In this document: positions 46,299 to 46,626 of the stretch, piece after piece
Layout of the letters: the number at the start of each line of letters is the position of its first letter
Position numbering within the stretch: position 1 is the stretch's first letter
Assembly (NCBI RefSeq): GCF_002979915.1
Contig: NZ_PCQA01000001.1
Span: 372,001-436,000, forward strand
Direction: 5' to 3'
Source of the DNA: Arthrobacter sp. MYb213
GTDB taxonomy: Bacteria > Actinomycetota > Actinomycetes > Actinomycetales > Micrococcaceae
DNA length: 64,000 bases
Program-made: the position numbers and the translations under genes
The notes under the pieces: model-generated
What the model was told of the DNA's origin: nothing
What the model saw: the letters and a program-made list of their open reading frames with translations, nothing else
Database searches by the model: none

Positions 46299-46480
46299 CA
46301 AATCCGCGCACTGCAGCAAAGATCCGTGTGATCTTTGAGGGCATCAATTACCCGTTCCTTGAAGACTAAGAGCTGCCTGCTGACCACCGGATCAACAAGG
46401 TCATCATCGGAAGTGTCCACTATTTGACACAATCCAGTAGCAAGTCACGGTGCACATCAAAGCGGTGTTATGCTCAAATC
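46299..46480 (+). other. Region upstream of the leuA leader
   Basis: It holds a perfect 8-bp hairpin (46317-46324 with 46330-46337) just after the membrane protein gene, possibly its terminator without a T-tract. A TTGACA at 46424 has no -10 at the right distance. TATGCT at 46469-46474, with an upstream TG, is a good extended -10 for the leader transcript. Confidence 0.5.
46469..46474 (+). promoter_or_regulatory. Extended -10 element for the leuA leader transcript
   Basis: TGTTATGCT gives an extended -10 box ending 6 bases before GTG 46481. Initiation at or near that GTG would make the leader peptide leaderless. Confidence 0.5.
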
Positions 46481-46537
46481 GTGCATTTCGAGCTTCTACT
46501 ACTAATCTGCCGCTGCGAGGATCCAAGAGACCGTTAG
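46481..46537 (+). CDS. leuA leader peptide with four consecutive Leu codons
   Basis: An 18-residue ORF reads V(M)HFELLLLICRCEDPRDR and ends in TAG. The Leu run is CTT CTA CTA CTA (46493-46504), using the rare CTA codon three times. It stands 89 bases before leuA, the gene for the first committed step of leucine synthesis. Leader peptides of this sort are predicted for leuA in other Actinobacteria; ribosome stalling when leucyl-tRNA is scarce would change the folding of the RNA that follows. Confidence 0.8.
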   Translation: MHFELLLLICRCEDPRDR

Positions 46538-46567
46538 TGGTCAATTCGGCCGACCTTCTCGCCGCGG
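46510..46567 (+). promoter_or_regulatory. leuA attenuator structure
   Basis: CCGCTGCGAG (46510-46519) pairs with CTCGCCGCGG (46558-46567) at 9 of 10 positions. Inside it GACC (46529-46532) can pair with GGTC (46539-46542), or GGTC with a second GACC (46552-46555). The 5' arm begins 6 bases after the last Leu codon, so a ribosome stalled there would cover it. No T-run follows, which argues for translational or Rho-dependent control rather than an intrinsic terminator. Confidence 0.65.
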
Positions 46568-46626
46568 AGTAGCTCATGTCTGGCCCCACACAACTAAGCA
46601 CCAACATTGTCTAGGGGAAAACCGAA

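Follow-up and report, generated by a model that had tools for sequence, protein, structure and literature searches.

A LEU element with a probably leaderless leucine leader peptide upstream of leuA in Arthrobacter sp. MYb213

Background

The leu operon of enterobacteria is preceded by an attenuator whose leader peptide contains consecutive leucine codons. A 2020 study by Canestrari et al. reportedly deals, as its title has it, with leaderless polycysteine leaders in mycobacteria. For the same genus, the relevant passages of two other papers cite translation attenuation of cysteine genes (PMC13236596) and describe cysteine-rich uORFs and leaders (PMC4633059).

The closest described system is the LEU element, predicted in 2005 upstream of leuA in most of the actinobacteria studied (PMC1262725). 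It contains a leader peptide with a leucine run and a pseudoknot and has no terminator; its base stem is formed by pairing of the leucine run with the leuA ribosome binding site. Besides leuA the paper covers leuS of Streptomyces, which it treats as a case of classical attenuation. The mechanism of the LEU element is not settled by the literature that we found, the 2005 paper having found mutation data from Streptomyces at odds with classical attenuation. Mutations of the leuA leader of S. coelicolor had some effect, not of the kind seen in classical attenuation, and mutations of the leucine codons are stated elsewhere in the same paper to have no influence on regulation (PMC1262725). In S. 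lividans the leader LeuL1 (MRFGLLLLSCRGEGL) upstream of leuA is described as being transcribed leaderless and as lacking a typical terminator (PMC8079986). Leaders of leuA are also mentioned in passages on C. glutamicum and C. diphtheriae (PMC4046766, PMC3890552, PMC5784534).

Here we consider the region upstream of leuA in Arthrobacter sp. MYb213, in a window of 64,000 nucleotides (contig NZ_PCQA01000001.1, positions 372,001 to 436,000). The element in this region is a member of the LEU class (PMC1262725). The two share a leader with a leucine run before leuA, a pseudoknot, a candidate pairing of the leucine run with the ribosome binding site, and the absence of a terminator. The methods list of the 2005 paper contains no genome of the Micrococcaceae, the family of this strain. 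Added here are the leaderless layout, a codon-level test and elements before leuC and leuB, whereas the base stem of the 2005 element has no support once relatedness is controlled. The leucine-codon leader is shared with the enterobacterial leu attenuator, but no intrinsic terminator was seen in the window. As far as can be judged from the title and the citing text, the mycobacterial polycysteine leaders likewise are uORFs with a cluster of codons for the amino acid of the pathway, and leaderless by title; they differ in the amino acid, cysteine, and in the genes controlled. A previous sequence-only reading of the window had stated, correctly, that leader peptides were predicted upstream of actinobacterial leuA; it overlooked the leaderless layout, the pseudoknot and the identity with the published LEU element.

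Data and methods

The leader DNA matched all 18 genomes of the genus that were searched, its own included. LeuA matches with E <=1e-100 were found in 149 of 149 genomes of the family, 112 of 119 in the order sample and 235 of 246 in the class sample; these samples overlap. Upstream regions were taken from a part of these loci and from 80 named loci. Of the 279 loci, L001 and all exact duplicates were removed, as were L230, which was too short, and L140, which gave no tblastn hit; 250 distinct regions were left. Among named relatives, the nearest belong to Arthrobacter and allied Micrococcaceae. Alignment A2 contains 66 of 72 selected sequences; four with impossible spans, one over-long sequence and the doubtful L114 were left out.

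Candidate pairings were assessed by comparing own and swapped arms. Since related sequences inflate the z values of such swaps, we also compared the closest pairs of loci differing in both arms (sister pairs). For the pseudoknot and the base stem, a duplex test over wide windows gave noisy results; it was replaced by a contiguous-helix test and then by the sister-pair test. The weak P1 matches L226 and L255 were excluded from the count of contiguous-helix positions (n=228). Fold simulations and sister pairs used the 216 of 250 regions with a mutually consistent leader and P1, and the swap test of the leader start with the leuA start used the 215 regions with P1 and a -10-like box.

Leader peptide

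Table 1. Features of the leuA upstream region (positions in the window)
Feature	Position	Strand	Evidence
Operator-like inverted repeat TGTCCACTATTTGACA, upstream of the leader promoter	46414..46429	+	15/17 distinct genus sequences
Extended -10-like element TGTTATGCT; predicted transcription start ~46481	46466..46474	+	sequence; TAnnnT spacing in 209/230 loci
Leucine leader peptide ORF VHFELLLLICRCEDPRDR (and stop), predicted leaderless	46481..46537	+	sequence; same plan as S. lividans LeuL1
TGCATTTCG, leader start region, 9 bp complementarity to the leuA start	46482..46490	+	at least 8 bp in 16/17 genus sequences
Control codons, leucine run CTT CTA CTA CTA	46493..46504	+	sequence and leucine conservation across loci
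P1 5' arm CCGCTGCGAG	46510..46519	+	99.2% of 660 cells paired in A2; covariation
Small hairpin GACC GTTAGT GGTC, within the loop that separates the P1 5' arm from the pseudoknot arm	46529..46542	+	genus alignment; MFE fold
Pseudoknot helix 5' arm GGCCG	46548..46552	+	own-versus-swapped z -9.4, 247 loci; sister pairs
P1 3' arm CTCGCCGCGG	46558..46567	+	pairs with 46510-46519 at 9/10 positions; covariation
Pseudoknot helix 3' arm TGGCC, overlaps CCCC 46584-46587	46581..46585	+	5 pairs in the window
CCCC, potential pairing partner of the leuA ribosome binding site	46584..46587	+	with GGGG in 17/17 genus sequences; no covariation
TAGGGG, likely leuA ribosome binding site	46612..46617	+	can pair with CTTCTA 46493-46498, 6 bp, two G-U
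CGAAATGCA, partner of 46482-46490, holds the leuA ATG	46623..46631	+	sequence, pairing
leuA, 2-isopropylmalate synthase, 579 aa	46627..48366	+	ORF; E <=1e-100 match in 149/149 family genomes

The leader ORF has 18 codons, starting with GTG at 46481 and ending with TAG at 46535-46537, upstream of leuA (46627). The sequence-only reading correctly gave the four consecutive leucine codons, three of them CTA, and the 89 nt that separate the leader stop from leuA. It let the feature begin at 46469. The ORF is indeed present, but its start is the GTG at 46481, and 46469 is the first base of a -10-like TATGCT (46469-46474, part of TGTTATGCT). The CTA codon described there as rare is uncommon, with 8.1% of the leucine codons in 41 ORFs of the window (CTT 10.7%, CTG 37.7%), but TTA (5.5%) is rarer. 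The ATG at 46470 was considered as a leader start and rejected: it is in another frame than the leucine run, and outside the genus the box mostly contains no ATG. Compared to LeuL1, the peptide VHFELLLLICRCEDPRDR follows the same plan with a different sequence, and its run contains three CTA codons.

The -10-like box lies 6 nt upstream of the GTG, which makes a leaderless leader probable. A TAnnnT box situated 6-7 nt upstream of an in-frame ATG or GTG was found in 209 of 230 loci, one per locus; this corresponds to 209 of 381 in-frame ATG and GTG codons, compared to none of the 421 out-of-frame ones in the same stretches. Since the presence of such a box was weighted in the choice of the leucine run, the number 209 may be somewhat favoured; this weighting alone is unlikely to have produced the contrast with 0/421. 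L166, L167 and L179, three loci from the class sample whose peptide is identical to LeuL1, have the TA-box approximately 10 nt from the ATG and were scored as misses. No two-hexamer promoter with -35 and -10 boxes was observed in 46299-46700 (0.3 in shuffles).

Of the 17 distinct genus sequences, 15 contain the repeat TGTCCACTATTTGACA, situated 67-69 nt upstream of the leader start. The motif was observed in one of 95 other sequences of the family and in none of 138 other sequences, and a search of the whole genome found the pattern a single time. Perhaps it is a candidate operator for a leuA-specific regulator.

A stem similar to P1 was found in 247 of the 250 distinct upstream regions. With P1 as the only anchor, the three codons ending 5 nt upstream of it encode leucine in 235, 227 and 223 of the 247 loci, whereas in the other two frames leucine occurs at this place in at most 5 loci. 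Two of these codons take all four bases in the third position (A28 C99 G38 T82 and A29 C95 G29 T94), and the last one mostly has T (196/247). As the leucine codons were located from the P1 anchor alone, this supports sensing by a translating ribosome. A leader in which three or more leucines follow one another is present in 230 of 250 regions, including all 17 distinct sequences of the genus. Several of the 20 other regions have interrupted runs, such as LLQLL; in L085 and L195 neither the leader nor P1 was detected. In 229 of 230 loci the leader stop codon lies upstream of the P1 3' arm. The comparative data thus indicate that the leader is under coding constraint and is probably leaderless, and the sensor half of the proposed switch appears well supported by the comparison.

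These observations bear on the preference of the 2005 paper, where the pseudoknot serves as a site for a regulatory protein of the ML1624 type, which carries a DEAD-box helicase domain; the leader ORF would then be incidental. The pseudoknot is indeed compact and conserved, and the published argument from co-occurrence (PMC1262725) agrees with a protein site. However, an incidental ORF fits poorly with leucine codons held in one frame in more than 220 of 247 loci while their third bases vary, and with an in-frame start 6-7 nt after the -10-like box in 209 of 230. We consider this explanation improbable, and protein binding may be additional to leucine sensing.

Stem P1 and the pseudoknot

The pairing of a 10-base arm after the leucine run with a downstream arm at nine of ten positions, noted in the earlier reading, holds; the only mismatch is U46514/C46563. 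The leucine run is retained in 17/17 genus sequences, and P1 in alignment A2 has 45 double changes, compared to 14.6 in shuffled alignments and at most 16 when the arms are slid. On the other hand, the P1 finder also matched 165 of 500 shuffled regions, and thus the stem alone would not be rare. The single-sequence fold of the leader region is not better than that of shuffled sequences (z 0.21; 114 of 200 shuffles reach an equal or better fold), so the case for more than chance is comparative. Both alternative GACC/GGTC pairings described earlier are present, GACC at 46529-46532 and 46552-46555 competing for GGTC at 46539-46542.

The pseudoknot helix of the window (46548-46552/46581-46585) has 5 bp; one arm lies 5 nt upstream of the P1 3' arm and the other 13 nt downstream of it. 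The best helices in other loci occupy similar positions: in 178 of 228 loci one arm ends 3-4 nt upstream of the P1 3' arm and the other begins 11-15 nt downstream of it. The own-versus-swapped z value is -9.4 for all loci (n=247), -2.6 in the genus, -3.5 in the rest of the family and -11.2 elsewhere. Among sister pairs own arms won in 30 cases and swapped arms in 13, with 65 ties (p 0.007 uncorrected, about 0.1 when corrected for 15 tests). The ratio is 21 to 7 outside the family and 6 to 7 inside it, where 31 of 44 comparisons are ties. The pseudoknot thus seems to covary across the wider sample, but inside the family the signal is weak or absent. The GGCC repeats were also considered as a classical 1:2/2:3/3:4 attenuator and this was rejected: the 2:3 helix is the pseudoknot helix of the published type, and the 3:4 helix shows no covariation.

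The features of the LEU element are found in the window as follows. Firstly, an ORF with a leucine run is situated upstream of leuA. Secondly, a pseudoknot lies 3' of the run, with a helix of 5 bp, P1 paired at 9/10 positions and sister pairs at 6 to 7 in the family. Finally, the element is similar to other LEU elements: covariance model R1, built from A2 with the window copy (L002) itself among its 66 sequences, finds a single element in the genome at E 8.3e-14, and the next place has E 0.14.

Some small riboswitches likewise combine a stem and a pseudoknot, and the element could in principle bind leucine or a pathway intermediate directly. However, the invariant and near-invariant positions of A2 are almost wholly confined to the -10 box, the start codon, the leucine codons and P1, and the loop inside P1 spans from 6 to 107 nt; a small-molecule riboswitch is thus very improbable. 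A search of the window against Rfam yielded no match at the gathering score, and the only permissive match was DicF (E 1.5), situated upstream of the leader and not overlapping it.

Transcription or translation

No terminator-like site was found in 46299-46700 (0.3 in shuffles), in agreement with the absence of a T-run noted in the sequence-only reading, and in this respect the region differs from a classical transcription attenuator. The leader could still act on transcription: when leucine is plentiful and leuA is not translated, Rho would end transcription in the leader or early in leuA, and stalling would prevent that. The lack of a terminator-like site is consistent with Rho, and Rho-dependent ends have been suggested for actinobacterial cys leaders (PMC1262725). 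The relevant part of a study of C. glutamicum reports an early rise of both leuA and leuL mRNA, after 5 min of starvation, in a strain lacking (p)ppGpp, with the same tendency in the parent (PMC6892785). Thus the transcript level, in the data given there, changes as well, and a component of transcription or stability may contribute. On the other hand, the conserved element extends close to the leuA initiation site, and Rho action may be coupled with translational control and not opposed to it. Control through Rho-dependent transcription termination seems to us rather unlikely.

The leucine-sensing leader of the earlier reading, acting on translation without a terminator, agrees with the conservation of leucine codons, the leaderless spacing, the covarying stem and the absence of a T-run. 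The mask proposed there, CCCC pairing with GGGG, can form but shows no covariation.

Masking of the leuA initiation region

Three helices are candidates for masking leuA, and none is established. The first is the pairing proposed earlier, CCCC (46584-46587) with GGGG (46614-46617). Both segments are present and their pairing is possible in 17/17 genus sequences, where it hardly varies (17 distinct sequences). The own-versus-swapped comparison gave no signal in the genus (z -1.4), the rest of the family (-0.7) or elsewhere (+0.6). Sister pairs for the region after P1 and the Shine-Dalgarno (SD) box likewise gave none, at 4 to 6 in the family including the genus and 29 to 23 over all loci. The two competing masks, with 6 and 9 bp, are similar to it in stability, and alternative folds of the window lie within about 2 kcal/mol.

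The second candidate is the base stem of the published element, the leucine run (46493-46498) paired with the SD region (46612-46617). At least 5 bp can form in 15 of 17 genus sequences; the window has 6 bp, two of them G-U. The swap z value is -3.4 for the genus, 0.2 for the remaining family members and -6.4 elsewhere, but the sister pairs are at 28 to 26 overall and 10 to 10 in the family. For the combined base stem they are at 52 to 40 (p 0.13), and the apparent support from its swap z value of -10.9 was rejected, being lost once relatedness was controlled in this way.

The third candidate is the pairing of the leader start with the leuA start. Its swap z value is -6.9 in the family outside the genus (n=77), -3.0 in the genus and -1.8 elsewhere, and the sister pairs divide 17 to 7 within the family (p 0.03 before correction for 15 tests) and 25 to 30 elsewhere.

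Many members of the family outside the genus (L036-L090) have AAAAGGCC before the leuA start instead of a GGAGG-like sequence.

The effect of a stalled ribosome was simulated with nested folds lacking the pseudoknot and with the ribosome footprint masked. Outside the family, the mean openness of the SD box in these folds increased from 0.25 to 0.41 (up in 82 and down in 20 of 127 loci), compared to 0.29 with an initiating ribosome and 0.31 with a ribosome at the stop codon. It increased in 30 and decreased in 8 of 74 loci in the family outside the genus. The genus showed no such rise (0.315 without and 0.300 with stalling; one locus up and five down among 15), and the value for the window stays at 0.34. 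The leuA start codon of the genus does open on stalling, from 0.26 to 0.42; however, an initiating ribosome alone also yields 0.42, and thus the effect is not specific to stalling.

Proposed mechanism

We think it fairly probable that stalling of a ribosome on the leucine codons of a leaderless leader relieves masking of leuA initiation, so that the switch acts on translation. The leuA mRNA would begin at the leader GTG, and the ribosome would thus load at the extreme 5' end. When charged tRNA-Leu is scarce, the ribosome would stall on the leucine run, hold the leader single-stranded and abut or open P1, so that the ribosome binding site or the start codon of leuA is free. With leucine in good supply, the ribosome would proceed to the stop codon, in the loop before the P1 3' arm. 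With the ribosome past the run, P1 and the pseudoknot would refold, and the leader would pair with the leuA initiation region. Comparison of loci lends support to the predicted leader, its leucine codons, the leaderless layout, P1 and, mainly outside the family, the pseudoknot; stalling, the identity of the masking helix and control at translation we infer.

If the control codons are pairing partners as well, mutations of leucine codons alter sensing and pairing together. Such a joint change, if real, could explain why the results of mutation have been hard to read.

LEU-like elements upstream of other genes

The model built from A2 had matches with E <=1e-4 in 104 of 119 genomes of the order sample, counted as model matches irrespective of the gene downstream. 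In the phylum sample 42 of 246 genomes matched at E 0.01, 21 of them in the class of Arthrobacter (best E all <=2.3e-11) and 21 outside. Two of the latter, G675 (E 1.3e-16) and G596 (E 2.0e-14), have the element before a leuA-like ORF. The matches in the other 19 genomes, at E 2.5e-4 to 0.01, are probably chance for the most part; among five that were inspected (L324, L325, L330, L331, L333), only L333 precedes a leuA-like ORF, by our reading. L322 and L323, of family f65 outside the class, are loci with a LEU element before a leuA-like ORF.

Second elements precede leuC in 7/7 genomes of the Microbacteriaceae-like family f19 in the order sample (L314, L334-L339), the seven f19 genomes covered by the model search; four more belong to the class sample. 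The nearest named leuA loci are, for all seven, those of Agromyces and Microbacterium. Each leuC element has at least three leucine codons and a stem paired at 10/10 positions, and its start codon follows a TAnnnT box at a distance of 6-7 nt, in a leader scan that required such a box within 5-9 nt. The identity of leuC was confirmed by NCBIfam for the five of seven that were submitted.

Other LEU-like elements precede second copies of leuA (L315, L316, L320, L340). The paralogue at L316 was confirmed by NCBIfam, scoring as 2-isopropylmalate synthase in this family library (this concerns the L316 copy, not the window protein), and the others were assigned by translation. In L317, L318, L319 and L341 (E 5.5e-10 to 2.2e-6) the element is followed by a short ORF and then leuB, confirmed by NCBIfam for L317 and L319 and assigned from the translation for L318 and L341. 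Finally, elements were found before leuS in L321, L326, L328 and L342 (E 1.3e-6 to 5.1e-4; L328 confirmed by NCBIfam, the others assigned from the translation).

The elements before leuC (in the f19 genomes) and leuB go beyond the leuA and leuS genes of the 2005 paper, and widen the set on which the mechanism of the LEU element can be tested. No leaders of this kind before leuC or leuB are mentioned in the text of that paper (PMC1262725), and a limited open-access text search, mostly of titles, found no paper on them.

A broader reading, which we offer tentatively and which may well not hold, is that the LEU element is a pathway-wide family of translational attenuators. In such a family the first codons of a leaderless leader and its leucine codons would mask the downstream start, of leuA, a second leuA, leuC or leuB depending on the lineage, and a near relative with a terminator would serve leuS. 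In the Micrococcaceae the mask would have shifted from the pairing of the leucine run with the SD box to the 9 bp pairing of the leader start with the leuA start, so that any loading or queuing ribosome would open leuA.

The short ORFs preceding leuB in L317, L318, L319 and L341 differ between lineages. In the leuS leaders of L326 and L342 the leucine codons are followed by a hairpin and a T-run, as in a transcription attenuator.
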